Assembly (NCBI GenBank): GCA_903882935.1
Contig: CAIRZB010000100.1
Span: 1 to 64,000 of the forward strand
DNA: 64,000 nucleotides
From: an uncultured Parafilimonas sp.
GTDB lineage: Bacteria > Bacteroidota > Bacteroidia > Chitinophagales > Chitinophagaceae
Direction of reading: 5' to 3'
The position numbers and the translations under genes are program-made. Positions 1,545 through 26,353 of the stretch are shown one piece after another. Below the pieces are notes generated by a model. The model was not told the DNA's origin. It did no database searches and saw nothing but the letters and a program-made list of their open reading frames with translations. The stretch's first letter is position 1, and each line of letters opens with the position of its first letter.

Positions 1545-1722
1545 CCACGCTGGCAAAAACCACCCTAAACAGGGCTGACTTAAGACATGAAAAACAAAAA
1601 TTAGGTTTGCAGGAAAATTTTCTACTGCACAGTCTTTTTTAAAACCCATGTGTGCCAGATGGCGGAGCTTTGTATTTTGTAAATTTGGCTATACCAAAAC
1701 TTTATTCTCCCAACATTTCTGC

Positions 1723-4152: not shown

Positions 4153-4180
4153 GTTTTAACAAGTATCCCGATTTTATTGT

Positions 4181-5245: not shown

Positions 5246-5290
5246 CCATTCCTATTAAAAACAGTTTAAAAATAATTCCTTCAAACCCAG

Positions 5291-6571: not shown

Positions 6572-6575
6572 GATT

Positions 6576-9459: not shown

Positions 9460-10709
9460 TAAAAAAAATCCTATTGCTTATCCCGCAAAATGTTATTCCG
9501 GCAACCGACGGGGGGAAAATTGGTATTTTTAAACCCATGCAAAAGTTAGCAGCAGAGTTTAACGTAAAAGCAATGGTTTTTGTAGATCAGGAGGAAAAAG
9601 CTAACGCCCAACCTTATAGTAAAATAAACGTTGATGTCACTTTCCTGGCAGTTAGCAAAAAAGACACCTTCCTTTCTGCTATTTTCAATATTGGCAACAA
9701 GATGCCATTTAAGTTTCAAAAATATTATTTGGAACAGCACAAATTATTTATTGAGAAAACATGTAATAACTGGAAACCAGATGCTATCATATGCCACCAT
9801 GCACACTTGGCAAATTATTGCAGAGACATAAAACGCAAATTTCCAGCCATTTTGCTATTGCTGCGGGAGCATAATGTGGAGTATTTGCTGGTTGAGCAAT
9901 ATTGCAAACACCAGCGTAATTTAATTTTACGGCAGTTTGCCTATTGGCAATTCCAAAAAACAAAAAGGTTTGAACGACGGAGCTGGGATTATTTTGACAA
10001 TGTTATATTTATTTCGGACTCCGATTTTAAGCACCATACCGTAGATAGTATTTCCAAGGCACAAATCATTTATGACGGAACTGACAATATAGCTGAATAT
10101 ATAGAGGTCCCTGAAGAAAAAATTAACGCTTTTTTATTTTCCGGAAGCCTTCGCTCCTATCAAAACCAAATAAACCTACATCATTTTGTGCACAATATTT
10201 GGATACCGTGGAAAAAGAATTATCAAGGGTCGTTTGGCTACGAGCTTTGGGTAACCGGGGACAAGGATACACAATTTGTACAGCAGCAATTGGGCTTAAA
10301 CAAAAGTGAGGTAAATGAGTATAAAATACAATTACTGGGCTTTGTGGATGACATAGTTGTTGTTATGACCAAAGCTAAATTCTTTCTGTCGCCAACAATA
10401 ATCGGCGCTGGTATAAGAATTAAAGTTTTGCAGGCAATGGGCTTGGGCTGCGTTGTTTTTTTGACACAAAAAGATTTAGACATATCAGTGGAATTTAAGC
10501 ACAGCCAAAACGTAATATTGTATGAAGACACTGCCTCTTTCAATAAAAATTTTGAACTATTATCTACTATACCCAACCCACTTTATGTTAAAATTGCTGC
10601 CCGCGCAGCATTATGCGCAAAAGAACACTTTACGTGGGATATTTTTTACAACAAGCTAAAGACGCTTATAAACGTTGTAAATAGCGGTACTGAAAACCAT
10701 AACAACTAG
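9456..10709 (+). CDS. glycosyltransferase, GT-B fold (GT4-like)
   Basis: A 417-residue GT-B type protein. The C-terminal half carries FFLSPTIIGAGIRIKVLQAM (about residues 308-327), the pattern found in GT4-like transferases whose nucleotide-sugar binding site ends in an E/K-x7-E-like helix. The N-terminal domain contains AIICHHAHLANY and LLREHNVEY, seen in GT4 enzymes of surface-glycan loci. It overlaps the polymerase by 4 bp (ATGA). Donor sugar is unknown. Confidence 0.82.
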   Translation: MIKKILLLIPQNVIPATDGGKIGIFKPMQKLAAEFNVKAMVFVDQEEKANAQPYSKINVDVTFLAVSKKDTFLSAIFNIGNKMPFKFQKYYLEQHKLFIEKTCNNWKPDAIICHHAHLANYCRDIKRKFPAILLLLREHNVEYLLVEQYCKHQRNLILRQFAYWQFQKTKRFERRSWDYFDNVIFISDSDFKHHTVDSISKAQIIYDGTDNIAEYIEVPEEKINAFLFSGSLRSYQNQINLHHFVHNIWIPWKKNYQGSFGYELWVTGDKDTQFVQQQLGLNKSEVNEYKIQLLGFVDDIVVVMTKAKFFLSPTIIGAGIRIKVLQAMGLGCVVFLTQKDLDISVEFKHSQNVILYEDTASFNKNFELLSTIPNPLYVKIAARAALCAKEHFTWDIFYNKLKTLINVVNSGTENHNN

Positions 10710-10717
10710 CGTTCACG

Positions 10718-11851
10718 ATGTTTAAAATACTTCAGCTTACTAAACACTACCCACCAGTTTTTGGCGGGATTGAGACAGTGACATTTGATTTAACAGAGGG
10801 GTTGAATAAGCGGCAAATCCAATGCGATGTGTTATGTGCAAATACCAATAATATATTGGAGGTAACTCATCTTAAAAATTACAAAGTCATCAGGGTACCA
10901 AGAGTTGGCAAATTAATGTCTACCTCCATTTCACCCCAACTACCGTCTTATTTGAAGAAAAACTTGGCCTCATACGATGTGGTGCATGTTCATTTTCCAG
11001 ACCCTATGGCTGCCTTAGCGTTATACCTGCAAAAGAATAATAAAGTTCCCTTAGTGGTACACTGGCATAGCGACATAATCAGGCAAAAGACCCTGTTAAA
11101 ATTATATCAACCTTTGCAGGATTGGATTTTAAAAAAGGCAGATCGCATTATTGCAACTTCAGAAAATTATGCGCTACATTCATTGTCATTAAAACCCTAT
11201 CTAAATAAGGTTTCAGTGGTACCAATTGGTATTGACGCATCCAAAATAGGGGCAGTTGACACTTGTACATTTGATATAAAAAAGGAACACCCAGGTAAAA
11301 AAATTGTGTTTGCGTTGGGCAGGCTGGTTTATTATAAGGGGTTTGAATTTTTGTTAAAAGCCGCAACGGCTATAAACGACGATACTATCATCATTATCGG
11401 CGGGGATGGGCCCTTGTTTACAACTTTGCAGGCTTTAATACACCAAAACAATTTGACAAATAAGGTTTTTTTAGTTGGTAAAATACCAAATGTGCAACTG
11501 AGCAGCTATTTTAATGCCTGCGATATTTTCTGTTTGCCCGCGATAGAGAAATCAGAGGCTTTTGGGGTAGTGCTTTTAGAGGCATTGTATTATGGCAAAC
11601 CATTGGTCACCTCGGATATTAAAGAATCTGGTATTTGCTGGGTTAACCAACATGATAAAACAGGGTATAATCTGCCACCAAAAGATATTGTTGCGTTGGC
11701 AATAAAGATAAATGAATTGTTGGCAAACAAAGAAAAATACGCTATGCTCTCCGCCAATGCGAAGGAAAGGTTTCACGAGCATTTCCAAAGTGAAAAAATG
11801 GTTGATTCGATGGTGGATGTATATAAAGAAATATTAAATAGGAATAACTAG
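10718..11851 (+). CDS. family 4 glycosyltransferase
   Basis: A 377-residue retaining GT4 enzyme. The acceptor domain starts ILQLTKHYPPVFGGIETV with the Gly-rich FGGIE loop. The donor domain has FALGRLVYYKGFEFLLKA, GGDGPL, and SEAFGVVLLEALYYGKPLV, where the two Glu residues of the E-x7-E motif fall at about 285 and 293. It follows the previous glycosyltransferase by 8 bp in the operon. It acts in the cytoplasm on the lipid-linked oligosaccharide; mannosyl or glucosyl transfer are the common family activities. Confidence 0.9.
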   Translation: MFKILQLTKHYPPVFGGIETVTFDLTEGLNKRQIQCDVLCANTNNILEVTHLKNYKVIRVPRVGKLMSTSISPQLPSYLKKNLASYDVVHVHFPDPMAALALYLQKNNKVPLVVHWHSDIIRQKTLLKLYQPLQDWILKKADRIIATSENYALHSLSLKPYLNKVSVVPIGIDASKIGAVDTCTFDIKKEHPGKKIVFALGRLVYYKGFEFLLKAATAINDDTIIIIGGDGPLFTTLQALIHQNNLTNKVFLVGKIPNVQLSSYFNACDIFCLPAIEKSEAFGVVLLEALYYGKPLVTSDIKESGICWVNQHDKTGYNLPPKDIVALAIKINELLANKEKYAMLSANAKERFHEHFQSEKMVDSMVDVYKEILNRNN

Positions 11852-11903
11852 GTATACTGCTGTCCATAAATTTTTGCACTTTTCAACGCCTTAATACTTT
11901 CGA

Positions 11904-12686
11904 ATGAAACAAAAAATCAGAGACTTTTTACATTTATTTGGCATTGACATTACTCTCCGGCCCAAATATAATGGCAGTTCCACTTTTGAGATTGACGGAT
12001 TTAGCTACGGTTTTTCTACACCTACTGCGAATTTAACACCATGGGACGGTGATGAGGATTTTAAAAAAATATATGCCATAGTTAGAAACAGGTTTACATT
12101 AGTGGATATTTACCGTTGTTATGAGTTGTGGCAATTGGTTGAAAAAGCTTATGAGTTAAGCCCATCAGCCGGAATACTGGAAGTGGGTGTTTGGCGGGGC
12201 GGCACTTCAGCTATAATGGCTGAAAAATTAAAAACACTACATGCTAACACACCCATATTTATGGCTGATACGTTTACAGGGGTGGCAAAAGCAACAAAAG
12301 AAGATAAGTTTTATGTTGGAGGGGAACATTGCGACACAAGCGAACAATTGGTTACCGAACTAATGATAGATACTGTTGGCTATAAAAATTTCACTATCTT
12401 AAAAGGCATTTTCCCCGAGGATACCCAGCATCTCATAACTTCTGTAGAACAGTTTTCACTTTGCCATATTGATGTTGATGTTTATGCATCAGCAAAAGAT
12501 ATACTAGAGTGGATATGGGGCAAATTGATTATAGGGGGTATGATTGTATTTGATGATTACGGGTTTCATACCTGTGTCGGCATAACAAAATTTGTTGAAG
12601 AACACCGTCATAAAACAGACCGCGTAATAATACATAACTTAAATGGACACGCGATTATTGTAAAAATAGGTAACCAAATAGTATAA
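11904..12686 (+). CDS. TylF/macrocin-type O-methyltransferase family protein
   Basis: A 260-residue class I methyltransferase resembling the metal-dependent TylF/MycF family that methylates sugar hydroxyls. LEVGVWRGGTSAIMAE (about residues 96-111) is motif I. CHIDVDVY (about 195-202) and IVFDDYGF (about 222-229) supply the acidic metal and catalytic positions expected in TylF-like enzymes. It is the last plus-strand gene before the opposite-strand methyltransferase, with only 24 bp between their stop codons. Likely role: O-methylation of a glycan residue. Confidence 0.83.
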   Translation: MKQKIRDFLHLFGIDITLRPKYNGSSTFEIDGFSYGFSTPTANLTPWDGDEDFKKIYAIVRNRFTLVDIYRCYELWQLVEKAYELSPSAGILEVGVWRGGTSAIMAEKLKTLHANTPIFMADTFTGVAKATKEDKFYVGGEHCDTSEQLVTELMIDTVGYKNFTILKGIFPEDTQHLITSVEQFSLCHIDVDVYASAKDILEWIWGKLIIGGMIVFDDYGFHTCVGITKFVEEHRHKTDRVIIHNLNGHAIIVKIGNQIV

Positions 12687-12710
12687 ACTCCGCCTGAGAT
12701 AATTTCGGAA

Positions 12711-13346
12711 TCAACTATTTTTTTTCGCATAAACATATTCTGCAAAGCCCAAGATATCCCAAAATATGCTGCCTGGAATGTAACCACGTTTCATCACGTT
12801 ATAGGCAATCTTTATTGGAGTAAGCAGAATGTAAGGCCAATATCGCCGTAACCCTTTACTAATTGTTACAAAGCCGGCAGTTGTTAATAGTTGCTCAATT
12901 TCTTGTAAAGAGTAAAGTCTTACGTGAGTGGGGTCGTCATAAAAATTTAAAGAACCGCGCATTTTTGGAAAGCGCGTGCTCTTTTCCCCAGGGTATTCTA
13001 TATAAATAAACCCGCCGGGTTTCAATTTTTTAGCAAGCCCTTCTATTACCTTATCACCGTTGTGTAAGTGTTCTATGATATGGCTTAATATTATCAAATC
13101 ATAATAATAATCGGGAATCTCATCAAAATCTAACTTGGTTACATCCATTTCAAAATACCGATCCATCAATGACATGTCATTTGCGGAATTATCATAATTT
13201 CCAATATCAATGCCATGGTAAATACAATCTGGAAAAACTCTTTTTGCTAGCGAAGGTGAATGACTGCCTGCGCCAACATCAAGTAAAATAAATTTTTTAG
13301 TTTTAAAATGGTTGTGGGAAAAACGAAACCTCGGTGGAATAATCAT
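12711..13346 (-). CDS. class I SAM-dependent methyltransferase on the opposite strand
   Basis: A 211-residue methyltransferase. Motif I is FILLDVGAGSHSPSLA (about residues 19-34), motif II GIDIGNYD, and LIILSHIIEHLHNGDKVI (about 87-104) has the D/S.IEH signature, followed by LKPGGFIYIEYPGE. It is the only gene in the 1.7-16.6 kb glycan locus transcribed leftwards. It converges with the TylF-like gene and is divergent from the next glycosyltransferase across a 141-bp gap, so it splits the locus into two transcription units. Acceptor unknown. Confidence 0.85.
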   Translation of the reverse strand: MIIPPRFRFSHNHFKTKKFILLDVGAGSHSPSLAKRVFPDCIYHGIDIGNYDNSANDMSLMDRYFEMDVTKLDFDEIPDYYYDLIILSHIIEHLHNGDKVIEGLAKKLKPGGFIYIEYPGEKSTRFPKMRGSLNFYDDPTHVRLYSLQEIEQLLTTAGFVTISKGLRRYWPYILLTPIKIAYNVMKRGYIPGSIFWDILGFAEYVYAKKNS

Positions 13347-13487
13347 ACAAACAAATCATTTAAACTTAGCGCAAAAAAGGGTTTATGATAATCTTTATCT
13401 TAGGCATTTTTTAGAAAAAAATCCCATACGATTCAAGCACAAAAGAAAGACAAAAATTCAGTATTTATACGTCTGTTTAAATTTTTA

Positions 13488-14303
13488 ATGCATAAATTAA
13501 CTTGTTCAATAGTAATATACCAGCAACGGGCATGCACTTTAATGCCGTTAGTTTTAAACCTAACCAACTGCCAGTTGATTGAAAAACTTTACCTAATCGA
13601 CAACTCCCCTATCAATACCTTACACTCCCTTGCAACCCACCCAAAAATTGAATACATATTTAACAATGCCAACCTGGGTTATGGAGCAGGGCACAACGTT
13701 GCTGTAAAAAAGGCATTGGCCAAAAGCAAATACCATATTGTTGTAAACCCAGATATTATGTTTGAGCCTGGCACCATTGAAAAAATGTACGATTACATGC
13801 AGGCAAACCATGCTGTTGGCCTGCTAATGCCCAAAATAAATTACCCTAATGGAACCCTACAATATGCCTGTAAGCTATTGCCAACACCGGCCGATTTAAT
13901 ATTAAGGCGTTTTTTGCCGGCTGCGTTGATAAAAAACAGAACGGCCTATTTTGAAATGCACGACAGCGGTTACAACAAAATAATGGAAGTACCGTATCTT
14001 TCCGGCTGCTTTATGTTTTTGAGGACAGAGGCACTAAATAAAGCGGGGCTTTTTGACGAACGTTTTTTTATGTACCCGGAAGACATTGACCTAACCAGGC
14101 GCATACACAAACATTATAAAACAATCTTCTACCCGTATGCTGATATAACCCACGTGCATGAAAGAGGAAGCTACAAAAGTATTAGGTTGCTTTTTGTGCA
14201 TATAATAAACATGATAAAATATTTTAATAAATGGGGCTGGTTTTTTGATTCGGAAAGAAAACAGGTGAACGAAAAAATAAGGAGCCAATATACAAGGCGT
14301 TAA
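13488..14303 (+). CDS. family 2 glycosyltransferase (WbbL-like)
   Basis: A 271-residue GT-A enzyme. The opening LTCSIVIYQQ, the donor-site YLIDNS, NANLGYGAGHNVAVKKAL (about residues 60-77) and the DXD-like VVNPDIMFEPG (about 84-94) place it with WbbL-type rhamnosyltransferases. FMYPEDIDLTRRI (about 193-205) carries the acceptor-site ED. It starts the second plus-strand half of the glycan locus after the divergent intergenic gap. Rhamnosyl transfer is a family-based guess. Confidence 0.88.
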   Translation: MHKLTCSIVIYQQRACTLMPLVLNLTNCQLIEKLYLIDNSPINTLHSLATHPKIEYIFNNANLGYGAGHNVAVKKALAKSKYHIVVNPDIMFEPGTIEKMYDYMQANHAVGLLMPKINYPNGTLQYACKLLPTPADLILRRFLPAALIKNRTAYFEMHDSGYNKIMEVPYLSGCFMFLRTEALNKAGLFDERFFMYPEDIDLTRRIHKHYKTIFYPYADITHVHERGSYKSIRLLFVHIINMIKYFNKWGWFFDSERKQVNEKIRSQYTRR

Positions 14304-14334
14304 ACAAGCAAAACAAAAAGCAAGAGGTAAATTT

Positions 14335-15531
14335 TTGAAACCCAAACTACTCATCATACTCAACCGTTTGGTTATTGGCGGGCAAGCCTTAGATACCATA
14401 CCACTTCTTTATAACTTAAAAGAAGAGTTTGACCTACTTATTTTGCATGGCCGCAAGGAAAAAGATGAAATAGAGGCTACCGCTCTTTTGCACCAATTTA
14501 GAAGCCTGCCCTTGGTGCTAAATCCTTATTTTAAACGCAAACTGAACGTAATTAATGACATTGGGGCCTTTTTTTTCATCCTTTCCACCATCCTTAAGTT
14601 CAAACCTAGTATTGTACACACCCATGGTTTAAAATCTGGTCTTATGGGCCGCGTGGCAGCTTACCTGGCGGGCATAAAATGTGTTTACCATACTTACCAT
14701 GGGCACCATTTTCACTCGTATTTCAACCCATTCATTTCCAAATGGATTATCCTAGCCGAACGGTTGCTGGCTAAAATAACAACCAGCCTTGTTGCGATAA
14801 GTGCCACCCAAAAAAATGAACTGGCCATTACCTATAAAATTGCCCCCTCCGAAAAAATACAGGTAATTCCACTTGGTATAGATAAAAACGTCTTTTCAAG
14901 TAATAACGAGGTGGCCAGACAACAATTTAGGCAGCATTACGCCATTAGCGACAAAGCCATAACCATTGGCATCATCGGCCGCATTGTACCCGTAAAAAAC
15001 CTCCTCCTGTTTACACAGGTTGTCGCCAACACTATTAGGCAAAAAGACAACAGCACCGCAGTTAAGTTTTTTATTATTGGCGATGGCCAGGACAAGAAAA
15101 TGGTAATGGCCGACTTGGATAAAAACAATATCCGCTGGTGCAAGGCCGATAATTTGGATAGCAGCGCGCAGGTAGTGTTTACCTCTTGGGTTACCCATGT
15201 AGCGTTAGCCCTACATGGGCTGGATGTTGTTGTGCTTACCTCGCATAATGAGGGCACCCCCCTATCGCTCATCGAGGCTCAGTTTTGTGGCAAACCGGTG
15301 GTGGCCACAAATGTTGGTGGCGTAAAGGATACTTTTGTTGACGGTGAGAGCGGCTTTTTGGTACCAGCCGGCAATGCAGGTATTTTTACCGAAAAGCTAA
15401 TGCTGTTGGTTACCGATGGGCACCTGCGCGCCAATATGGGCAGGCACGCTGCGGCATTTGCTGCAAATAATTTTTCCAAAGCAAAAGAAATTGATAGCTT
15501 CAAACAATTATACCACTCCTGCGAAAAATAG
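14335..15531 (+). CDS. family 4 glycosyltransferase
   Basis: A 398-residue GT4 enzyme translated from TTG 14335. N-terminal LIILNRLVIGGQALDTIPLL, IVHTHGLKSGLMGR and YHTYHGHHFHSY are typical of the WcaL/Bsh-type acceptor domain. The donor domain has IGIIGRIVPVKNLLLF and VLTSHNEGTPLSLIEAQFCG, with E-x7-E at about residues 306 and 314. It precedes the epimerase by 6 bp, so the two are surely cotranscribed. Likely adds a hexose or uronic acid to the repeat unit. Confidence 0.88.
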   Translation: MKPKLLIILNRLVIGGQALDTIPLLYNLKEEFDLLILHGRKEKDEIEATALLHQFRSLPLVLNPYFKRKLNVINDIGAFFFILSTILKFKPSIVHTHGLKSGLMGRVAAYLAGIKCVYHTYHGHHFHSYFNPFISKWIILAERLLAKITTSLVAISATQKNELAITYKIAPSEKIQVIPLGIDKNVFSSNNEVARQQFRQHYAISDKAITIGIIGRIVPVKNLLLFTQVVANTIRQKDNSTAVKFFIIGDGQDKKMVMADLDKNNIRWCKADNLDSSAQVVFTSWVTHVALALHGLDVVVLTSHNEGTPLSLIEAQFCGKPVVATNVGGVKDTFVDGESGFLVPAGNAGIFTEKLMLLVTDGHLRANMGRHAAAFAANNFSKAKEIDSFKQLYHSCEK

Positions 15532-15537
15532 ATTACC

Positions 15538-16590
15538 ATGAAATTTTTAGTTACCGGCACCGCTGGTTTTATTGGGTTTCATTTAACCAACCGCCTGCTT
15601 GCCGAAGGGCACAGTGTTGTGGGTATTGACAGCATTAACTATTACTATGATGTTAACGTAAAATACAACCGCCTTGCCTTTGCAGGTATTTTAAAAGAAA
15701 ACATACAGTACAACCAGCCTGTTTTAAGTACCAAAAACAACAACTACACATTTTACAAGGTTCAGCTGGAAGAGAAACAACACCTGATGGCAATTTTTGA
15801 GCAGTATGGCTTTGATGTGGTGGTAAATCTTGCGGCCCAAGCAGGGGTACGATACAGTTTGATAAACCCCGATGCCTACGTTAACAGCAACATTGTTGGC
15901 TTTGTAAATATATTGGAGTGTTGCAGGCACCATCATATCGGCCATTTGGCCTACGCCAGCAGCAGCAGCGTATACGGGCTTAACGATGAAAACCCTTTTT
16001 CAACAGCACAAAATGTTGACCACCCTCTTTCTCTGTACGCAGCAAGTAAAAAAAGCAACGAGCTGATGGCCCATGTATATAGCCACCTGTTTAACCTGCC
16101 CACCACCGGGCTGCGCTTTTTTACAGTGTACGGCCCTTGGGGCAGGCCAGATATGGCGTTGTTCATATTTACAAAGGCCATTCTTGAGGGCAGGCCAATT
16201 CAGGTGTTTAACAACGGCAATATGCTGCGCGATTTTACGTATGTAGACGACATTGTGGAAGGCATTTTAAGGGTTGCCCTAAACCCACCCCAGCCAAACC
16301 CTGGTTGGCTGGCCAGCAACTCTGATGCTTCATCGTCGTCAGCACCGTATAAGGTATACAATATCGGCAATAATTCCCCTGTAAAACTAATGGACTTTAT
16401 AAACGCCGCGGAGAATGAACTTGGCATAGAAGCAATTAAAGAGTACATGCCCCTGCAACCGGGCGACGTGCCGGCTACCTACGCAGATGTGCATGACCTT
16501 GTGCGCGATATGGGCTACAAGCCAGCCACAACAGTGCAGCATGGCATAAAAATGTTCATACAATGGTATAGAGAGTATTACAAGGTGTAA
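15538..16590 (+). CDS. NAD-dependent UDP-sugar epimerase, UDP-glucuronate 4-epimerase-like
   Basis: A 350-residue extended SDR enzyme. The NAD-binding motif is GTAGFIGFH (residues 7-15), [16 protein letters not shown] (about 30-45) is characteristic of UDP-glucuronate 4-epimerases, ASSSSVYG supplies the catalytic Ser and YAASK (about 168-172) the Tyr/Lys pair. [16 protein letters not shown] matches the same subfamily. It would supply UDP-galacturonate for the polysaccharide, implying an acidic polymer. It ends the glycan locus, 100 bp upstream of a strong terminator. Other 4-epimerase substrates (UDP-GlcNAc types) remain possible. Confidence 0.88.
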
Positions 16591-16690
16591 AGTATTTCTG
16601 CAAAAGCTAGGGTGGCCCCGTTTAGGCCTTGTTGCCAAACCCAGCCAAAATGCTAATATTATTCGCTCCTTTTGTGCTATAAATAACTTT

Positions 16691-16719
16691 TACCCTGCCT
16701 TTGGTGGGGTATTTTTTTT
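16691..16719 (+). terminator. rho-independent terminator after the glycan locus
   Basis: A 9-bp stem (TACCCTGCC / GGTGGGGTA, two G-U pairs) with a TTT loop is followed by eight T residues at 16712-16719. It lies 100 bp after the epimerase stop and isolates the glycan operon from the carotenoid regulator. Confidence 0.85.
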
Positions 16720-16859
16720 CTAACTTATTTGGTTGCTCCGTCTGGGCTTGGTAAAACCCGGCATGCCCAAAAAATATTTGTTTAAATATTTTAACAATAT
16801 TTATATTGAAAAATAAACAAAAATGCAAAAGCATTCTTAGTTTCGGTTTGTATTCAGGC

Positions 16860-16886
16860 TAAGCGTGTAATAATATAAAACGCTTA
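16860..16886. promoter_or_regulatory. inverted repeat upstream of the CarH-like gene
   Basis: TAAGCGT (16860-16866) and ACGCTTA (16880-16886) form a perfect 7-bp inverted repeat with a 13-bp AT-rich spacer, 36 bp before the ATG of the B12-binding regulator. The left half, AAGCGTGTAA, resembles AAGCGCGTAA at 17851-17860 ahead of the sigma-factor promoter. Position and symmetry suggest an operator, perhaps autoregulatory; binding is inference. Confidence 0.4.
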
Positions 16887-16921
16887 AACATTTTTTTACT
16901 GTTTCTTGTTGTTTATGGACT

Positions 16922-17800
16922 ATGGATGCATTTACAATCAAAGATTTGGAGAACTTAAGCGGTATAAAGGCCCATACCATCCGCATTTGGGAGCAGCGGT
17001 ATTCATTCCTGAAACCCCAACGCACCGATACCAACATACGGTATTACACCAACGAGGAGCTAAAAAAATTGCTGAATGTTGCCCTGTTGAACAAATTTGG
17101 CTTTAAAATTTCCCACATCAACCGGATGAATGGCCAGCAGGTGTACGAAAGAATCGAATCACTTACGCAATCCGAAGCAGTTAATGAGAAGATTGTAAAC
17201 AGCTTGGTTACGTTGATGATTGACTTAGAGGTGGGCAAGTTTGAAGATATTCTGGATGAATACATTGCAGTTAAAGGCATTGAAAAAACAATACCCCAGT
17301 TAATTTTCCCGTTGCTTGAAAAAATTGGCGTACTATGGCACACCAACCACATAGTGCCGGCGCAGGAGCATCTCGTAAGCAACATTATGCGGCAAAAATT
17401 GATTGTTGGCATAGAAAATGCCAACCCGCAAATAAAACTTGATAAAACCGTGTTGGTATTTTTACCGGAAGACGAACACCACGAGCTGGGCCTATTGTAT
17501 ATGTACCACCAATTTAAAACCCGTGGCTTTACGGTGTTGTACCTCGGCCCCAACACCCCCGTGTCAGACGTGCATTTTGTAGTACGCCGTAAAAAGGTAC
17601 ATTTTGTATATACACATATAATATCAAGCCCGGTAAATTTTAATTTTGATAAATTTTTGGCATCCTATTCCAGTATGGTGCCAGATGTACCGATGGTAAT
17701 AACGGGTAAGTACGCAAAAACCTACAAAAAAAGCACCCCTGTGCATGTACATTTCAAACAATCTCTTGCTGACGTAATGGAATATGCCACTAGCCTTTAA
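16922..17800 (+). CDS. CarH/LitR-like MerR regulator with B12-binding domain
   Basis: A 292-residue regulator. An N-terminal MerR helix-turn-helix (residues 3-70; FTIKDLENLSGIKAHTIRIW, then RYSFLKPQR) is joined to a helical bundle and a C-terminal cobalamin-binding Rossmann domain. The bundle contains W139-x9-E149-H150, the Wx9EH signature of adenosylcobalamin-binding photoreceptors. The Rossmann domain has E185-x-H187-x-x-G190, placing H187 as the lower axial Co ligand. In characterised CarH proteins, AdoCbl-bound tetramers repress carotenoid genes in the dark and fall apart in light. The gene is followed by an ECF sigma factor and crtI/crtB, which fits that role. Whether this protein senses light or only B12 is inference. 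Confidence 0.9.
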   Translation: MDAFTIKDLENLSGIKAHTIRIWEQRYSFLKPQRTDTNIRYYTNEELKKLLNVALLNKFGFKISHINRMNGQQVYERIESLTQSEAVNEKIVNSLVTLMIDLEVGKFEDILDEYIAVKGIEKTIPQLIFPLLEKIGVLWHTNHIVPAQEHLVSNIMRQKLIVGIENANPQIKLDKTVLVFLPEDEHHELGLLYMYHQFKTRGFTVLYLGPNTPVSDVHFVVRRKKVHFVYTHIISSPVNFNFDKFLASYSSMVPDVPMVITGKYAKTYKKSTPVHVHFKQSLADVMEYATSL

Positions 17801-17876
17801 CCCCTTGCGGCAAAAATTAACTACCACTAATTTATAAATAAGTACCAAGAAAGCGCGTAAATTGTAAAAAACTTTA

Positions 17877-17904
17877 TTGCCAACTAAAAATATGTTTAAC
17901 TTTG
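17877..17904 (+). promoter_or_regulatory. Bacteroidota-type promoter for the sigma factor and crtI
   Basis: TTG at 17877-17879 (the -33 element, ATTG in context) is followed after 17 bp by TAACTTTG at 17897-17904, a perfect match to TAnnTTTG. The ECF sigma gene starts 26 bp downstream. AAGCGCGTAA at 17851-17860, just upstream, resembles half of the inverted repeat before the CarH-like gene. Confidence 0.6.
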
Positions 17905-17930
17905 CAGTGTAAATTTTTAAACAAAAAGTT

Positions 17931-18431
17931 ATGGCAGCTTTAGAATTTAACCAAGTGTTGTTGAGCAATGCAGAGTTTTTAAAGCCCTTTGCTATTACTT
18001 TAACAAGGGATACAGAAGCGGCGAAAGACCTTTTTCAGGAAACTATGTACCGTGCCCTTGTTAATGAGGATAAATACAAAGTGGGCACCAATGTTAAGGC
18101 GTGGCTTTACACCATAATGCGTAATGTGTTTATCAACGGCTACCGGCGCAAAGCAAAGCAACAAACCATATTTGATGCCACCCCTAACGAGGCTTTACTA
18201 AATTCTAACCAGTTAAGCGTTATGAACGATGCTGCGAGCATACTTAACCATAAAGAATTGCAAAAAGCCATTTATAACCTGCCAGAGATTTTCAAGACTC
18301 CCTTCATGCTATATTTTGACGGCTTTAAATACCACGAAATTGCAGAAGTGTTAAATGAACCACTGGGTACAATAAAAAGCAGGATACATTTTGCGCGAAA
18401 ACTACTTAAAGAACAAGCAGAACGATTTTAA
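17931..18431 (+). CDS. ECF-type RNA polymerase sigma factor
   Basis: A 166-residue sigma-70 family protein with regions 2 and 4 only. Region 2 shows DTEAAKDLFQETMYRAL (about residues 28-44) and VKAWLYTIMRNVFINGYRR (about 58-76). Region 4 has FMLYFDGFKYHEIAEVLNEP and GTIKSRIHFARKLLK, the helix-turn-helix that reads the -35/-33 element. No anti-sigma factor is adjacent, so control probably runs through transcription by the upstream CarH-like regulator. It lies 24 bp before crtI and likely drives the carotenoid genes. Confidence 0.9.
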   Translation: MAALEFNQVLLSNAEFLKPFAITLTRDTEAAKDLFQETMYRALVNEDKYKVGTNVKAWLYTIMRNVFINGYRRKAKQQTIFDATPNEALLNSNQLSVMNDAASILNHKELQKAIYNLPEIFKTPFMLYFDGFKYHEIAEVLNEPLGTIKSRIHFARKLLKEQAERF

Positions 18432-18435
18432 AATA

Positions 18436-18448
18436 GGGGCCAAGCCCC
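18436..18448 (+). promoter_or_regulatory. small hairpin in the crtI leader
   Basis: GGGGC-CAA-GCCCC forms a 5-bp GC stem 7 bp before the TTG start of crtI, where a ribosome would bind. It could limit translation of crtI relative to the sigma factor. Confidence 0.35.
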
Positions 18449-18455
18449 ACTTACA

Positions 18456-19949
18456 TTGGCACAAAAAGTAATTATTATTGGCGCGGGCTTTTCGGGACTT
18501 TCCTCCGCATGCTTTATGGCTAAAGCTGGGTGGGATGTAACCGTATTAGAAAAACACGACATTCCTGGTGGCAGGGCTAGGCAGCTGGTAGCTGAAGGCT
18601 TTACTTTCGACATGGGACCCAGCTGGTATTGGATGCCCGATGTTTTTGAGCGGTTTTTCAATAGCTTTGGCAAAAAAGTAAGTGACTATTACAGCCTTTA
18701 CAGGTTAAGCCCCAGTTACCGCATATTTTGGGAAGATAGTTTGATGGATGTACCAGCTGACTACGAGGGCTTCAAAAACCTTTTTGAACAAATAGAACCG
18801 GGAAGCGGCGAAAAACTAGATAGGTTTTTAGCTGAGGCAGAATACAAATACAACACCGGCATCAATAATCTCGTATATAAGCCGGGATTATCTGTTACTG
18901 AATTTATTGACAAAGACCTAATTGCCGGCCTTTTTAGGCTTGATGTTTTCCAATCTATTAAAAAACACATCGGTAAGTATTTCAAAAACCCCAAGCTGCA
19001 GCAGCTGCTGGAATTTCCGGTATTGTTTTTGGGTGCCCTGCCAGAAAAAATGCCTGCGTTATACAGCCTTATGAATTATGCCGATATTAAAGGCGGTACA
19101 TGGTTTCCTAAAGGGGGCATGTACAGTATTGTAAAAGCTATGCACAGCCTTGCCGAAGAACTTGGCGTGTCGTTTTTGTTTAACGAGGACGTGCAAGAAA
19201 TTGTGGTAGAAAACGGAAAAGCGAACAAAATAATCTCCTTCAACCAAAAAGAGCAAACCACCGCATCGTATACGGCGGATGCGTTTATTGGCAGTGCCGA
19301 CTACCACCACATTGAAACAGCATTATTACCCCTCCAATACAGAAGCTACACCGAAAATTATTGGGAAAAGAGGGTTATGGCACCCGGTTGTTTACTTTAT
19401 TATGTAGGATTGGATAAACGTTTGAACAATCTTGCCCACCATTCGTTATTTTTCGATACGTCGTTTGCGGTACATGGCAGTGAAATATACAATGATAAAC
19501 AATGGCCTACCAACCCACTGTTTTATGTGAGTGCCACTTCGGTTACTGAAAACGGGCTTGCCCCAGAAGGGTGCGAAAACCTATTTTTCCTTATACCGGT
19601 GGCCGTTGGCCTAGCGGGCGACGACGAGGCTTTGAGGGAACGGTATTTTGACATGATTATAAAACGCTTTGAGGATAGGGTTGGCGAGCCTGTTAAACAG
19701 CATATTATTTACAAAAAAACTTTTGCCAATAGCGATTTTGTAAATGACTACAATGCATTTAAAGGCAATGCATATGGGTTGGCAAATACTTTGTTGCAAA
19801 CTGCCATGTTAAAACCCTCGTGCAGAAGCAAAAAAGTGGAAAACCTGTTTTATGCAGGGCAATTAACTGTTCCCGGGCCAGGTGTACCGCCATCCATTAT
19901 AAGCGGGCAGGTGGCCGCAAAACAGGTGGTGGAAAATTTTATTAGTTAA
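18456..19949 (+). CDS. crtI: phytoene desaturase
   Basis: A 497-residue FAD-dependent desaturase that would convert phytoene to lycopene. The FAD-binding dinucleotide fold is at the N-terminus (VIIIGAGFSGLSSACFMAKAG, written here as residues 4-23: VIIIGAGFSGLSSACFMAKA). GPSWYWMPDVFERFF (about residues 54-68) and the C-terminal FYAGQLTVPGPGVPPSIISG are the bacterial CrtI signatures. Translation must begin at TTG 18456, since no ATG lies close. The gene is cotranscribed with the ECF sigma gene and followed by crtB. Confidence 0.93.
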   Translation: MAQKVIIIGAGFSGLSSACFMAKAGWDVTVLEKHDIPGGRARQLVAEGFTFDMGPSWYWMPDVFERFFNSFGKKVSDYYSLYRLSPSYRIFWEDSLMDVPADYEGFKNLFEQIEPGSGEKLDRFLAEAEYKYNTGINNLVYKPGLSVTEFIDKDLIAGLFRLDVFQSIKKHIGKYFKNPKLQQLLEFPVLFLGALPEKMPALYSLMNYADIKGGTWFPKGGMYSIVKAMHSLAEELGVSFLFNEDVQEIVVENGKANKIISFNQKEQTTASYTADAFIGSADYHHIETALLPLQYRSYTENYWEKRVMAPGCLLYYVGLDKRLNNLAHHSLFFDTSFAVHGSEIYNDKQWPTNPLFYVSATSVTENGLAPEGCENLFFLIPVAVGLAGDDEALRERYFDMIIKRFEDRVGEPVKQHIIYKKTFANSDFVNDYNAFKGNAYGLANTLLQTAMLKPSCRSKKVENLFYAGQLTVPGPGVPPSIISGQVAAKQVVENFIS

Positions 19950-19995: not shown

Positions 19996-20829
19996 ATGCA
20001 CTTGTTTCACGATGTATGCCTGCAGTGCAGCAGCATAACCACCCAGCAGTACAGCACCTCGTTCTCGTCGGCTATCAGGCTTCTCGACAAAAGCCTTAGG
20101 CCCCATATATGCTCTGTATATGGTTTCGTGCGCGTTGCTGATGAAATAGTGGATACTTTTCATGATTACGACAAAAAAACCCTGTTAGCCGAGTTTAAGA
20201 AGGAAACCTATATCGCCATCAACCGAGGAATAAGCGTGAACCCCATTTTACACAGTTTTCAGCTTACGGTAAATAAATACAATATTTCCAACGACTTAAT
20301 AGAGGCGTTTTTCCGGAGTATGGAATTTGATTTGGAGAAAACCGTATACGACGTTAACGGTTACCAAACCTATATATATGGCAGCGCGGAGGTTGTAGGC
20401 CTAATGTGCCTGTACGTTTTTTGCGAGGGGGATGAGCAACTGTATAAAAAGCTAACACCATTTGCCCGCAGCTTAGGCGCGGCCTTTCAGAAAGTTAACT
20501 TTTTGCGCGATTTCAAAAACGACTTTGAGGGCCTAAACCGAATGTACTTTCCCGGTTGCGACTTTACCAACTTTTCGGCAAAAGACAAGGAGGTTATAGA
20601 GAAGGACATTCAAGCTGATTTTGACAGTGCTTACCCCGGCATATTGCAACTGCCTGTAAAAGTGCGTTTCGGCGTGTATGTAGCTTACAAATACTACCTA
20701 TCGTTGTTTAAAAAAATCCGTAAGGCCGCCCCACAAAAAATCCTTAAACAGCGTGTACGCATACCCGACTATGGCAAAATGCTTATTTTGGCAAAGGCCG
20801 GCGTACGCCAGCAGTTTAACATGCTGTAA
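19996..20829 (+). CDS. crtB: phytoene synthase
   Basis: A 277-residue squalene/phytoene synthase that joins two geranylgeranyl diphosphates. The first Asp-rich motif is VRVADEIVD (about residues 46-54), the second LRDFKNDFEGLNRMYFP (about 171-187); both bind Mg-diphosphate. YGSAEVVGLMC (about 128-138) is also conserved. It begins 46 bp after crtI. It is the committed step of the pathway. Confidence 0.93.
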   Translation: MHLFHDVCLQCSSITTQQYSTSFSSAIRLLDKSLRPHICSVYGFVRVADEIVDTFHDYDKKTLLAEFKKETYIAINRGISVNPILHSFQLTVNKYNISNDLIEAFFRSMEFDLEKTVYDVNGYQTYIYGSAEVVGLMCLYVFCEGDEQLYKKLTPFARSLGAAFQKVNFLRDFKNDFEGLNRMYFPGCDFTNFSAKDKEVIEKDIQADFDSAYPGILQLPVKVRFGVYVAYKYYLSLFKKIRKAAPQKILKQRVRIPDYGKMLILAKAGVRQQFNML

Positions 20830-20935: not shown

Positions 20936-21469
20936 ATGGAACAAGTAATTTTGGTAAATGAGTACGACGAACCTATTGGCATGATGGAAAAAATGCAGGC
21001 CCACGAAACTGCGGTGCTGCATAGGGCATTCAGCGTTTTTATTTTTAATAACACCGGTGAAATGCTACTGCAACAACGGGCAGGCACCAAGTACCACAGT
21101 GCCGGTTTATGGACAAACGCCTGCTGCAGCCACCCAAGGCCGGGCGAAGAAACGATAGCAGCGGCGCACCGCAGGCTGGTGGAGGAACTTGGGTTTGACA
21201 CCGAACTTAAAAAAATTTTCCATTTTACTTACAAAGCCGATTTTAGCAACGGCTTGGTAGAGCATGAGTTTGACCACGTATTTACAGGCGGGTATTCAGG
21301 TAAAATTTGGCCAGATGCTGCTGAAGTTAGCAACTATGCCTATCATACGCTGCAATTCATCGAGGACGACTTGGCGCTTAACCCCGAAAAATATACCGCA
21401 TGGTTTCACATTGCCTTCCCTAAAATAAGGGATTGGTGGCAATTGATCGCACATAACACCAATGCCTAA
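20936..21469 (+). CDS. idi: isopentenyl-diphosphate delta-isomerase, type I
   Basis: A 177-residue Nudix-family isomerase interconverting IPP and DMAPP. HRAFSVFIFNNTGEMLLQQR (about residues 31-50) and TNACCSHPRPGE (about 60-71) contain the catalytic Cys in the NxCCSHP motif. HEFDHVF (about 104-110) carries the catalytic Glu, and AAHRRLVEELGF is the Nudix-like helix. It supplies precursors to CrtB. Its own promoter lies immediately upstream and its stop is 4 bp before the next desaturase. Confidence 0.93.
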   Translation: MEQVILVNEYDEPIGMMEKMQAHETAVLHRAFSVFIFNNTGEMLLQQRAGTKYHSAGLWTNACCSHPRPGEETIAAAHRRLVEELGFDTELKKIFHFTYKADFSNGLVEHEFDHVFTGGYSGKIWPDAAEVSNYAYHTLQFIEDDLALNPEKYTAWFHIAFPKIRDWWQLIAHNTNA

Positions 21470-21473
21470 CTGT

Positions 21474-22973
21474 ATGCAAAAAGCAATCATCATCGGCTCG
21501 GGCGTGGCTGGCATGGCCAGTGCAATAAGGCTGGCAGCACAGGGCTTTGAGGTTAATGTGTTTGAAAAAAACAGTTACCCTGGCGGAAAGTTAAGCAGCA
21601 TCAGCCGAGGCGGCTACCAATTTGACGCCGGCCCCAGCCTTTTTACACAACCCCAAAACATTGAAGAATTGTTTGCCCTAGCCGGGGAAGACATGGCAGC
21701 ATACCTTCAATATGAACGGCTGCCGTTAGCATGCCGCTATTTTTACGAAAACGGTAAGGTGCTGAATGCCTATACTGACCCCGCAAAATTTTCAACGGAA
21801 CTTCAAAACATAATGGGCGAGGATGCCACGGCGGTTTTAACATATTTAAACCAATCTGCGCAATTGTACAACAACATCGGCAGTATATTCCTCAACAATT
21901 CTTTACATAAGGCTAGCACTTGGCTGCGGCCAACTATTGCCAAAGCATTTGCATCTATCAACCCAAAATACTTGTTTAAAACCCTGCATGCTATAAACTC
22001 GGGCAGCTTTACCAACCCACAAACGGTGCAACTGTTTGATAGGTTTGCCACCTACAATGGCAGCACCCCCTACCAAGCACCCGGAATGTTGAGCCTTATA
22101 CCACACTTGGAGCATAACGAGGGCACTTTTTACCCCAAAGGCGGCATGATAAGCATTACCAACGCACTGTATAACCTAGCCCAAAAAACAGGTGTGCGTT
22201 TTTACTTTAACACCCCGGTAGATAGAATTATTGAAACAGAGGGCAAAGCACTAGGCATTGTTGCCAACAACAAAAACATTTATGCCGATGTTGTTGTAAG
22301 CGATATGGATGTTTTGTTTACGTACAAAAACCTATTGGGTGATGAAACCTTTGCCAAAAAACTAACCAAACAACCCCGCAGCAGCAGTGCCGTCGTTTTT
22401 TATTGGGGCATAAAAAAAGAGTTTAAGCAATTACACCTACACAATATCTTTTTTAGCGACAACTATAAAGCCGAATTCGATTGTTTGTTTAACAAAGGCG
22501 GCATGTACAACGACCCAACGGTTTACTTAAACATAACTAGTAAATGCGAGCCTGGCCTACATGCGCCGGTTGGCTACGAAAACTGGTTTATACTGGTAAA
22601 CGCCCCCGCGTATAACGGCCAAAATATACAAACCATGCTAGCCCAATGCCGAGCCAACACAATAAGCAAACTAAACCGTATGCTAAACACCGATATAGAA
22701 GCCTTAATTGAGGTGGAAGAAATATTGGACCCTGTGCAAATTGAGCATAAAACCGCATCGTATGCCGGGGCTTTATACGGCACAAGCTCCAACACAAAAA
22801 TGGCCGCTTTTTTAAGGCACCCCAATTTTACCAACCAAATAAAGCGTTTATATTTTGTTGGCGGCAGCGTACACCCCGGCGGCGGCATACCTCTATGCCT
22901 TAAAAGTGCCAAAATAACGGCCGATATTATTGCAAAAGACAAAACAAAATGGGGCAATAGCCACCACAATTAA
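21474..22973 (+). CDS. crtD: carotenoid desaturase paralogue, CrtD-like
   Basis: A 499-residue second CrtI-family FAD enzyme. AIIIGSGVAGMASAIRLAAQ is the N-terminal dinucleotide fold, FDAGPSLFTQP the following conserved strand, and YFVGGSVHPGGGIPLCLKSA the C-terminal signature. Sequences of this subgroup that sit beside cruF act as 1-hydroxycarotenoid 3,4-desaturases, so it is named crtD by context. ATG 21474 puts the FAD motif 4 residues in; an ATG at 21462 overlaps the idi end and is also possible. Plain phytoene/zeta-carotene desaturation cannot be excluded. Confidence 0.85.
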   Translation: MQKAIIIGSGVAGMASAIRLAAQGFEVNVFEKNSYPGGKLSSISRGGYQFDAGPSLFTQPQNIEELFALAGEDMAAYLQYERLPLACRYFYENGKVLNAYTDPAKFSTELQNIMGEDATAVLTYLNQSAQLYNNIGSIFLNNSLHKASTWLRPTIAKAFASINPKYLFKTLHAINSGSFTNPQTVQLFDRFATYNGSTPYQAPGMLSLIPHLEHNEGTFYPKGGMISITNALYNLAQKTGVRFYFNTPVDRIIETEGKALGIVANNKNIYADVVVSDMDVLFTYKNLLGDETFAKKLTKQPRSSSAVVFYWGIKKEFKQLHLHNIFFSDNYKAEFDCLFNKGGMYNDPTVYLNITSKCEPGLHAPVGYENWFILVNAPAYNGQNIQTMLAQCRANTISKLNRMLNTDIEALIEVEEILDPVQIEHKTASYAGALYGTSSNTKMAAFLRHPNFTNQIKRLYFVGGSVHPGGGIPLCLKSAKITADIIAKDKTKWGNSHHN

Positions 22974-22992: not shown

Positions 22993-23682
22993 ATGCAAAT
23001 AAACAAACCAAGCACCAACAAAATAGCCCTTTTTATCGCACTGTTGTTTCATACATGCGGCGTTATCGGCATATTATGCGGCCCTTACAACCAATGGTTT
23101 ATCAACAACACACCGTTAACCCTAACCATTATGGCTGGGTTGTTAATTGCAACACAGCCACAAAAAAACAAATGGTTTTATATTTTTTTTGGGCTTGCAT
23201 TTACCACCGGCTTTTTGGTAGAGTTTACGGGCGTAAACACAGGCTTGCTGTTTGGGCGGTACACCTACGGCCAGGTGTTGGGGCCAAAAATAGCAGGGGT
23301 GCCGTTGCTGATTGGCGTAAACTGGTTTACGATTGTGTATTGTTGCGGGTGCATTGTTTACCAGTTTGAGGAATGGATGCAAAAAAAGCTGACAGGGCAA
23401 GCCAAGTTTTCATCAACAATACAGGGCATTGCCTTTGCCATGGATGCCGCGTTACTAACAACCTTGTTCGATTGGGTGCTTGAGCCCGTAGCTATTAAGC
23501 TACATTTTTGGCAATGGCAAAACAATACGGTGCCTTTGTTTAACTATGTTTCCTGGTTTGGCGTAAGCATGGCATTGTTGGTCGTATTCCGCAAATTACC
23601 ATTTAACAAACACAACCAATTCGCTGTACATTTGTTTATCATTCAGTTATTATTTTTTTTAGCACTGCAAACATTTTTATGA
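22993..23682 (+). CDS. cruF: carotenoid 1,2-hydratase (CruF family)
   Basis: A 229-residue membrane protein with about six hydrophobic segments, matching the DUF422/CruF family that hydrates the acyclic psi-end of gamma-carotene or related carotenoids. The segment TGVNTGLLFGRYTYG (about residues 78-92), followed by GVPLLIGVNWF, is the family core. DAALLTTLFDWVLEPVAIKL (about 150-169) is the second conserved patch. It overlaps the crtZ start by 4 bp. Together with the CrtD-like enzyme it gives the 1'-hydroxy-3',4'-didehydro end group. Confidence 0.88.
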   Translation: MQINKPSTNKIALFIALLFHTCGVIGILCGPYNQWFINNTPLTLTIMAGLLIATQPQKNKWFYIFFGLAFTTGFLVEFTGVNTGLLFGRYTYGQVLGPKIAGVPLLIGVNWFTIVYCCGCIVYQFEEWMQKKLTGQAKFSSTIQGIAFAMDAALLTTLFDWVLEPVAIKLHFWQWQNNTVPLFNYVSWFGVSMALLVVFRKLPFNKHNQFAVHLFIIQLLFFLALQTFL

Positions 23683-24173
23683 ACTGGATAATATATTGCT
23701 TAATTGCGCTGGCAACTTTTTTTACCATGGAAGGCGTGGCATGGTTTACCCATAAGTTTGTGATGCATGGTTTTTTATGGTACCTACATGAGGACCACCA
23801 CAAAAAAGACAAGGGTTTTTTTGAAAAAAACGATTCGTTCTTCCTCATATTTGCAGTACCGGCTTGGTTGTTTATCATGCTGGGCAGTATGGCCCAGGCC
23901 TGGTGGGCAGTAAGCATTGGCTTTGGCATAACCGCCTACGGCTCAGCTTATTTTTTGGTACACGACCTTATTATACACCAGCGCTTTAAGGTGTTTACCC
24001 GCACCAATAACAGGTATGTAAAAACAATACGCTGGGCACACAAAATGCACCACAAATATTTGGAGAAGGAAGACGGCGAAAGCTTCGGCATGCTGTTGGT
24101 GGCAAAAAAATACTGGGACAAAGTGCGCAGAGATGAGGAAATTAAAAGAAAATCGGCTAAACCAACTAATTAA
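23679..24173 (+). CDS. crtZ: beta-carotene hydroxylase
   Basis: A 164-residue membrane di-iron hydroxylase adding OH at C3 of the beta-ring. Four His boxes are visible: H25-x4-H30, H37-x2-H40-H41 (HEDHH), VHDLIIHQRF near residue 95 and HKMHHKY near residue 123. Length and boxes match CrtZ rather than the larger CrtR type. It overlaps cruF by 4 bp and precedes crtY by 65 bp. Confidence 0.93.
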   Translation: MNWIIYCLIALATFFTMEGVAWFTHKFVMHGFLWYLHEDHHKKDKGFFEKNDSFFLIFAVPAWLFIMLGSMAQAWWAVSIGFGITAYGSAYFLVHDLIIHQRFKVFTRTNNRYVKTIRWAHKMHHKYLEKEDGESFGMLLVAKKYWDKVRRDEEIKRKSAKPTN

Positions 24174-24238: not shown

Positions 24239-25447
24239 TTGCGATACACACTGCCGCCAAATAACCAATATGACTATATTATTGCCGGCGCAGGATGCGC
24301 CGGACTGAGCTTATTGATGCGCATATTGGAAAACCCCTTTTTAAGCAACAAACAAATTTTGGTAATTGACGAGGCACCAAAAAACCTTAACGACCGCACT
24401 TGGTGCTTTTGGGAAACCAGCCCCGGTTTGTTTGAACCAGTTGTACACCACCGCTGGCCCCGGCTAAACTTTTATTCCCAGGCATTCTCCTCCCCTATCA
24501 ATATTACCCCATATGAATATAAGATGATAAGGGGAATTGATTTTTACACGTACGTTCTGCAAAAAGCGCAACAGTACCCCAACGTGCATTTTCATTTTGG
24601 TAAAATAACCAGCAGTGGAAATGAAGACAGGTTAGGGTACGTATTAACCGACGGCGAAAAACTATATGCCAACTATGTTTTCAACAGTATTTTGCCAAAG
24701 TTTCGCCAAGCAGACCACACCAGCCTGCATAAAGCACCCTCTAGGCAAGCTGGCACATCTTCCCTCCTACAGCATTTCAAAGGTTGGCTGATTGAAACCC
24801 CCGAAAATATTTTTGACGATACCGCGGCCACCTTTATGGATTTTCGGGTGGGCCAGCAAAAAGCCACCACCTTTGTATATGTGCTGCCGGTGGCACCCAA
24901 CAAAGCTTTGGTTGAGTTCACGCTGGTATCGGAAAGATTATTAGACCAAATTGACTACGGCCAGGGTTTGACCAGCTATATTAATAACTATGTTACCAAA
25001 GGGGCGTACACTGTATTGGACGAAGAGTTTGGCGTTATACCCATGACCGATTTTCGTTTCGCACCTAGCAATGGGCGGGTAATTAACATTGGCACGGCTG
25101 GCGGCCAAACCAAGGCGAGCAGTGGTTTTACCTTCCAGTTTATACAAAAACACAGCGAGGTAATGGTACAACTTTTGGCCGGTGGCAAGCACCCAACTGC
25201 GCGAACATCATTTTTACAAAAAAGGTTTCATTTGTACGACAGTATTCTGCTGCATATCCTACAAACTGGCAAAATGCAGGGTGCCGACATTTTTGCAAGG
25301 ATGTTTAAGAAAATACGCCCCAAAACCATCCTGCGCTTTTTAGATAACAAATCAACGTTAATAGAAGAACTCGGCATAATGGCCAGCATGCCGGCGCGTA
25401 TTTTTTTACCTGTGGCTATTCAAAAAATTAACCGGCTAAGGAAATAA
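24239..25447 (+). CDS. crtY: lycopene beta-cyclase
   Basis: A 402-residue FAD/NAD-binding cyclase of the CrtY/CrtL type. The N-terminal YDYIIAGAGCAGLSLLMRI holds the dinucleotide motif, DRTWCFWE (about residues 57-64) and VIPMTDFRFAP (about 262-272) are conserved in CrtY, and GGQTKASSGFTFQFIQK (about 284-300) is the C-terminal signature. The start is TTG 24239. It would form the single beta-ring of a monocyclic carotenoid, with the other end taken by CruF/CrtD. It is the last crt gene. Confidence 0.92.
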   Translation: MRYTLPPNNQYDYIIAGAGCAGLSLLMRILENPFLSNKQILVIDEAPKNLNDRTWCFWETSPGLFEPVVHHRWPRLNFYSQAFSSPINITPYEYKMIRGIDFYTYVLQKAQQYPNVHFHFGKITSSGNEDRLGYVLTDGEKLYANYVFNSILPKFRQADHTSLHKAPSRQAGTSSLLQHFKGWLIETPENIFDDTAATFMDFRVGQQKATTFVYVLPVAPNKALVEFTLVSERLLDQIDYGQGLTSYINNYVTKGAYTVLDEEFGVIPMTDFRFAPSNGRVINIGTAGGQTKASSGFTFQFIQKHSEVMVQLLAGGKHPTARTSFLQKRFHLYDSILLHILQTGKMQGADIFARMFKKIRPKTILRFLDNKSTLIEELGIMASMPARIFLPVAIQKINRLRK

Positions 25448-26281: not shown

Positions 26282-26353
26282 GGCCACGTAGTACAATGGA
26301 TAGTATAAGAGCCTCCGAAGCTCCAGATACAGGTTCGATTCCTGTCGAGGCCA
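26282..26353 (+). tRNA. tRNA-Arg (anticodon CCG)
   Basis: A 72-nt cloverleaf. The anticodon loop CTCCGAA gives CCG (CGG codon, Arg), with stem GAGC/GCTC. The T arm is ACAGG-TTCGATT-CCTGT and the D arm has GGAT in its loop. The acceptor stem GGCCACG/CGAGGCC pairs except at position 5-68 (A-A), and position 27-43 is A-C. The discriminator is A and no CCA is encoded. Confidence 0.92.

Follow-up and report, generated by a model that had tools for sequence, protein, structure and literature searches.

The systems closest to the locus described here are CarH of Thermus thermophilus, a class I LitR protein, and the LitR-LitS-crt pathway of Streptomyces. In the latter, a light-to-ECF path is already known, as reported in the available text of PMC12705666: a B12-type MerR gene stands beside an ECF sigma factor gene and crt genes, LitR acts on litS and LitS on crtE, and in light LitR is said to promote the transcription of litS. 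In Myxococcus xanthus, CarA is described with an operator of ~55 bp containing two inverted repeats (PMC9304148), and the sigma factor CarQ is held by the anti-sigma factor CarR. Meanwhile, the class II LitR proteins of Pseudomonas (PplR/PmlR) possess no Rossmann B12 domain and work with LOV proteins, and these LitR homologues have been linked to folE and SDR genes, among others (PMC9758184). Regarding the Bacteroidota, light-induced carotenoids were reported in Chryseobacterium lacus, where, according to the available portion of that report, neither a car nor a lit operon could be located and no regulator was assigned (PMC7064467). Among the matches listed from the open-licence literature, neither a B12 MerR-ECF-crt circuit nor an experimentally tested CarH-like member was found for Bacteroidota.

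The window, meaning the whole stretch of 64,000 nucleotides analysed from an uncultured Parafilimonas sp., carries a comparable set of genes, all on the forward strand. A MerR/B12-binding (CarH/LitR-like) regulator gene at 16922..17800 (292 aa, from ORF and Pfam evidence) ends 130 bp before the start of an ECF sigma factor gene at 17931..18431 (166 aa, without a C-terminal extension; Pfam Sigma70_r2 2.3e-13 and Sigma70_r4_2 3.7e-11), the identity of this following gene being a difference from Thermus CarH. After 24 bp comes a crtI-type phytoene desaturase gene at 18456..19949 (NCBIfam NF058655, 722.6 bits against a cut-off of 640), an order that agrees with the preliminary description. It is followed by crtB for phytoene synthase (19996..20829; Pfam SQS_PSY 1.9e-43), idi for isopentenyl-diphosphate isomerase (20936..21469; NCBIfam PRK03759, 163.3 bits, cut-off 127), crtD for hydroxycarotenoid 3,4-desaturase (21462..22973; NCBIfam NF042421, 606.4 bits, cut-off 500), a cruF-like carotenoid hydratase gene (22993..23682; Pfam Caroten_synth 1.3e-27, the NCBIfam CruF models being below cut-off), an ORF at 23679..24173 and a crtY-type lycopene cyclase gene (24239..25447; Pfam Lycopene_cycl 1.4e-51). 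The ORF at 23679..24173 matched no Pfam or NCBIfam family; we take it to be a crtZ-like hydroxylase gene from its His-rich motifs, and a similar gene holds the same place in relatives. The gene order is, like the pocket residues, the conserved repeat and its statistical tie to the regulator, a feature of the sequence itself.

A terminator-like hairpin at 16691-16711 stands between the regulator-ECF-crt unit and the upstream genes, being weak evidence because such hairpins are near chance here (17 found, 14.6 expected). A Pfam scan of 30 window ORFs, four of which matched nothing, gave no match to an anti-sigma family, in contrast to the CarQ-CarR pair of M. xanthus; within those ORFs, the proposed lack of an anti-sigma partner holds. 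Most of the nearest relatives found carry the label Chitinophagaceae or Sediminibacterium, and the culturable Sediminibacterium goheungense has the same locus (L033).

As for the surroundings, polysaccharide export and synthesis families occur in part of 1648-16590, adjoining the regulator-ECF pair. In a relative, locus L052, an epimerase gene and a CpsB/CapC gene lie beside that pair, and three loci (L047, L048 and L054) have look-alike polysaccharide neighbours, judged by sequence only. A tRNA gene (26282-26353) lies just 3' of the carotenoid unit, and further on the window holds outer-membrane receptor-type genes (29659-32289 and 33942-36311) and GH3 and GH95 glycosidase genes (36503-38929 and 54189-56639).

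The regulator and its kinship with CarH

The regulator has the domain order of Thermus CarH, with a MerR DNA-binding domain, then a B12 helix bundle and then a Rossmann domain. The Pfam families MerR_1 (1.8e-14) and B12-binding_2 (4.7e-9) are both over their cut-offs, and B12-binding (3.4e-4), at 20.9 bits, falls short of its 32.1-bit cut-off. The recognition helix reads R21-x-W23-E24-Q25-R26-Y27, and the further motifs are G136xxW139, H140, E149-H150 (giving Wx9EH), E185-x-H187-x-x-G190 and G209xxxP213. Thermus CarH is the top match by both phmmer and profile search, with ~25% identity and, against 3whp, a phmmer E-value of 6e-24 over residues 3-239, in which the named pocket residues align. 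The MerR domain and W139, E149, H150, E185, H187 and G190 were found where the preliminary description had placed them.

Conservation was followed in 83 distinct sequences, the window included, reaching down to about one third identity, with hits below 180 aa and contained duplicates dropped. W139, E149, H150, E185 and H187 are invariant in 83/83, G136 is likewise unchanged, and G190 is kept in 62 of the 83. Further C-terminal positions conserved in at least 97% are K159, P182, L192, G209, P213 and G262; the C-terminal half is mostly variable, unlike the pocket residues. Most of the conserved positions also belong to the signature of the cobalamin pocket given in PMC11796333.

The AlphaFold2 model, made from a 24-sequence alignment (the window and 23 of 25 loci, leaving out L046 and the truncated L053), has a mean pLDDT of 89, and the Rossmann half is predicted whole. 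Compared with CarH 5c8d, it gives a VIA-align Z of 17.2 and an rmsd of 3.3 over 196 residues, with 22% identity. As a CarH-specific test, the fold search fails, as photocobilin (Z 17.8) and methionine synthase (16.7) score much as CarH does (17.2). The same genome encodes a cobalamin adenosyltransferase and four other B12-domain proteins and has two cobalamin riboswitches, so adenosylcobalamin is likely at hand. A CarH-like photoreceptor, as the preliminary description had it, is therefore well supported as the putative role of this protein by its sequence, the invariant pocket, the predicted fold and the B12 genes, considering that the fold is common to other B12 proteins.

It is also conceivable that, as with CarA or class II LitR, the regulator is not a B12 light sensor and answers to a partner or some other signal. 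CarA retains the His motif yet functions without B12 (PMC9304148), class II LitR is the effector of a LOV protein (PMC9758184), and the B12 motif of the window protein is worn in its C-terminal half. However, CarA lacks the Trp of Wx9EH, which is kept together with E149 and H150 in the whole set, and class II proteins have the helix bundle only, whereas here a complete Rossmann half is predicted. We consider this explanation unlikely.

Besides these similarities, there are departures from CarH. The NCBIfam CarH equivalog model gives 115.5 bits, below its cut-off of 400, and the protein is a relative of CarH, not the NCBIfam equivalog. From the classic motif D/ExHx2G/P-x41-SxT/V-x22-27-GG, the first part is present as E185xH187xxG190; SxT/V is replaced by THI, one residue early at 231-233, and GG by TG (261-262). 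The dimer salt bridge of Thermus CarH, which we take to be R176/D201, falls on H186/N211 in the regulator when counted along the phmmer alignment. Three of the four SignatureFinder elements, GxxW, EH, GxxH and GxxxP as listed in PMC11796333, are found, and GxxH has D184 in place of the Gly that 63/83 sequences carry. The claim that this residue set marks photoreceptors is then a little too strong, even though the residues themselves are present.

The Trp-His pair at 139-140 is also shared with Thermus CarH, where the corresponding His132 is the upper light-state ligand. Such a ligand occurs in many CarH proteins, not all. Within the family it is rare, as His occupies position 140 in 3/83 sequences (the window, G025 and G078), and Q, L, V, M and I are usual elsewhere. 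As described in PMC10442372, Thermus CarH H132A stays largely tetrameric in light; an earlier report cited there states the contrary, disassembly of H132A having been seen. Moreover, CtMerR, with an Arg at this position, undergoes a light-driven structural change without bis-His ligation (PMC11796333). With His140 missing in 80/83 sequences, the release step should therefore differ in most of the family, and the window protein may be one of the few canonical members.

The regulator is present as a single copy in its own genome. Second or third MerR-B12 paralogues, with 31-36% identity, occur in seven genomes of relatives, including G030 and G037, and in G037 one of them precedes crtI without a repeat (L194).

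An inverted repeat at the ECF promoter

Upstream of the ECF gene lies a putative operator of 31 bp at 17893..17923, the inverted repeat TGTTTA-N19-TAAACA, recognised by its conserved spacer and its rarity. It covers the presumed transcription start and a putative Bacteroidota sigma-A -7 box on the forward strand, TAACTTTG (17897..17904), assigned from sequence against the Bacteroidota sigma-A consensus TAnnTTTG. In 61 aligned ECF upstreams, the positions of the box outside the required hexamer show A in 90%, T in 78%, T in 85%, T in 80% and the final G in 42%. A possible -33 box is the TTG at 17877-17879; it is not conserved, and no conserved -33 box was found in these 61 upstreams.

The spacer is nearly fixed. 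The repeat with N18/19 stands ahead of the ECF gene in 42/45 loci, window included, and in these 45 loci 59 of 60 hexamer pairs (spacers 6-30) have a spacer of 18 or 19. When distinct ECF upstreams were pooled, the window included, 61/69 had the N18/19 repeat and 8/69 no exact repeat, counting each distinct ECF start once and dropping upstreams below 100 nt; a tally made only within the 61 repeat-bearing upstreams gives 84/88 pairs at 18/19 (spacers 6-40), the 45-locus tally and the following 27-locus tally being unconditional. Those 27 class-wide loci are what is new among the best 30 places, three of which belonged to the earlier loci. All 22 repeats there have a spacer of 18 or 19 (6-30 scanned), 17/27 loci have at least one repeat, and 20/27 have an ECF match, an adjacency biased to close relatives because only the best 30 places were taken. 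The strict form, TGTTTAA-N16/17-TTAAACA, occurs once in the 5.5-Mb genome of the organism (backwards control 0); 0.01 would be expected in the window, and 1/100 shuffles had it.

The repeat also follows the regulator from genome to genome. In a first panel of 59 genomes, tallied by hand with the regulator counted at E 1e-30 and the repeat accepted anywhere in the genome, the strict form is present in 27/33 regulator-bearing and 5/26 regulator-less genomes (p 1.7e-6), the backwards control giving 6/33 and 1/26. In a second panel, whose lists were copied by hand and which shares five genomes with the first, 118 of 198 sampled Bacteroidia genomes encode a protein related to the regulator at E 1e-30; the repeat is found in 100/118 of these and 16/80 of the others (p 2e-20; backwards control 18/118 and 10/80). 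This co-occurrence is partly inherited linkage, and the p values ignore phylogeny. The six regulator genomes of the first panel missing the strict repeat are G001, G005, G021, G031, G037 and G049, among which G021 has a looser repeat and G001, a congener of the window, has MerR and ECF genes with no recognisable repeat. In another congener (G002, 69% complete), the ECF gene has the repeat and no MerR gene was found. When the ECF gene is on another contig, as in G012, it still has the repeat (L102). At four loci in which merR is followed by crtI without an intervening ECF gene, the repeat lies ahead of merR, and it thus follows the regulator.

Those patterns bear on a rival reading, that the repeat serves a different regulator or the ECF factor itself. 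The CarH sites of Thermus and Bacillus are 11-bp direct repeats, differing from the inverted repeat seen here, and no tandem of the nnnnTnnACAn type exists on either strand of 16591-18455, as such an owner would allow. Against it stand the tracking of the regulator across 198 genomes, the position before merR at loci with no intervening ECF gene, a palindromic shape that is not that of an ECF promoter, and the half-site TAAACA, which fits the TnnACA core of CarH (PMC9304148). Another owner seems quite improbable to us. In addition, the inverted geometry has a precedent, because the M. xanthus CarA sites are described as inverted repeats; at 19/24 distinct successive repeat pairs lying within 150 bp, the starts are 55-57 bp apart, resembling the length of the CarA operator. 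The wiring from the regulator to the sigma gene is well supported by these sequence patterns, as a putative link.

Two further searches gave no candidate. An operator for merR autoregulation was sought in the window, where TGTTTA and TAAACA lie upstream of 16922, not at N18/19 in that orientation; some relatives have the repeat upstream of merR. A genome-wide regulon from loose hexamers was likewise rejected, with 53 sites against 16 in the backwards control (own genome, spacers 10-26) and no clear excess at spacers 18-19 among the matches listed; the later scans of this kind used the strict form only.

The repeat has other neighbours in relatives, too: folE in two genomes, SDR genes, and a gene for 6-pyruvoyl tetrahydropterin synthase. 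Of these, folE and the SDR genes are possible accessory targets reminiscent of class II LitR. One of the genomes with the repeat at folE, G041 (75% complete), has no regulator found. The strict sites in relatives are not all operators: several are inside long ORFs (e.g. at L096, L097, L106 and L142), and others adjoin genes of no known light link. Consequently, the pterin and SDR sites could be partly chance, though folE recurs.

What the sigma factor may control

The preliminary description had proposed that light controls the pigment through a relay to the sigma factor. Its first half, from sensor to sigma gene, is sustained by the repeat on the promoter; its second half, from sigma factor to pigment, is weakened by the close crtI gene, by relatives having regulator and crtI without an ECF match, and by regulator-sigma pairs without crt genes. 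With start codons chosen mechanically, the distance from ECF to crtI does not exceed 30 nt at 26 of the 34 loci measured, counting overlaps, so that one transcript is likely, and the crt genes are probably co-transcribed with the ECF gene from its promoter. In this, the locus differs from Streptomyces, since sigma and crt genes here appear to share a single operon behind the operator. In three loci of relatives (L034-L036), the ECF-crtI gap contains a hairpin, TGTCCCG...CGGGACA and then a run of Ts, perhaps an attenuator.

In a true relay, following the Streptomyces logic, the regulator would act on the sigma gene and the sigma factor would be required for crt transcription. Beyond the reported path from LitR through LitS to crtE (PMC12705666), this is favoured by G030, where the regulator and a repeat-bearing ECF gene are kept, the crt genes lie elsewhere, and their unlinked cluster has no repeat, even at one mismatch. 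It is also favoured by the ECF protein being equally conserved in loci without crtI (79% in L002, 77% in L052 and L054, 74% in L004). On the other side, crtI of the window starts 24 bp after the ECF gene, and when a target promoter of the sigma factor was sought by eye and by shared words in the ECF-crtI gaps, the ECF-idi gaps and the unlinked crt upstreams, no common -35/-10 motif was seen. Moreover, G007, G021 and G043 (97-100% complete) combine regulator and crtI, carry the repeat upstream of merR and lack any ECF match at E 1e-25, and G046 has a repeat immediately ahead of a crtI-like gene (31% identity) that is unlinked. A strict relay is possible, and on balance we doubt it.

Besides these cases, L052 and L054 retain regulator and ECF gene, with no match to crtI, crtB or crtY within ~8 kb, L052 having idi. 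Taken with G007, G021, G043 and G030, they indicate that the sigma factor is neither required in every relative for the link to crt nor confined to crt. The sigma factor here need not be the only route, another difference from Streptomyces, some relatives being without it.

A proposed light switch and its meaning

Our preferred reading, in which a dark repressor of the AdoCbl type is released from the repeat by light and the ECF-crt operon is then made, seems to us probable as a whole. The regulator would be a CarH/LitR-type repressor loaded with adenosylcobalamin. As a dimer or tetramer, it would occupy the repeat at 17893-17923 in the dark, over the -7 box and the start site, blocking the sigma-A promoter of the single ECF-crt operon. 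In light, the Co-C bond would be broken and the regulator would leave the DNA, and the ECF sigma factor and the carotenoid genes would be made together. The sigma factor would also be an output in its own right, carrying the signal to further genes, and it may be the sole link to pigment in genomes having crt genes elsewhere. Just as we infer AdoCbl binding, the light response and co-transcription, we infer repression over activation, because the repeat sits over the -7 box and the start site; control may instead be by activation, since in Streptomyces it is promotion of litS in light that is described for LitR.

What is new here is the conserved TGTTTA-N18/19-TAAACA inverted repeat on the ECF promoter. 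More tentatively, the pattern could extend to a Bacteroidia-wide circuit, in which a B12 MerR sensor, mostly without the His132 switch and with a different release step, would act on this symmetric operator, and an ECF factor free of anti-sigma control would broadcast light beyond pigment, to pterin, SDR and other genes. The family offers natural CarH relatives without the His reported, in the available text of PMC10442372, as needed for the break-up of the Thermus CarH tetramer, and the locus offers an ECF switch with no anti-sigma gene seen beside it among the 30 ORFs scanned. Together with its fixed-spacer putative operator, the gene pair is a concrete, testable light-switch candidate for members of the class Bacteroidia.
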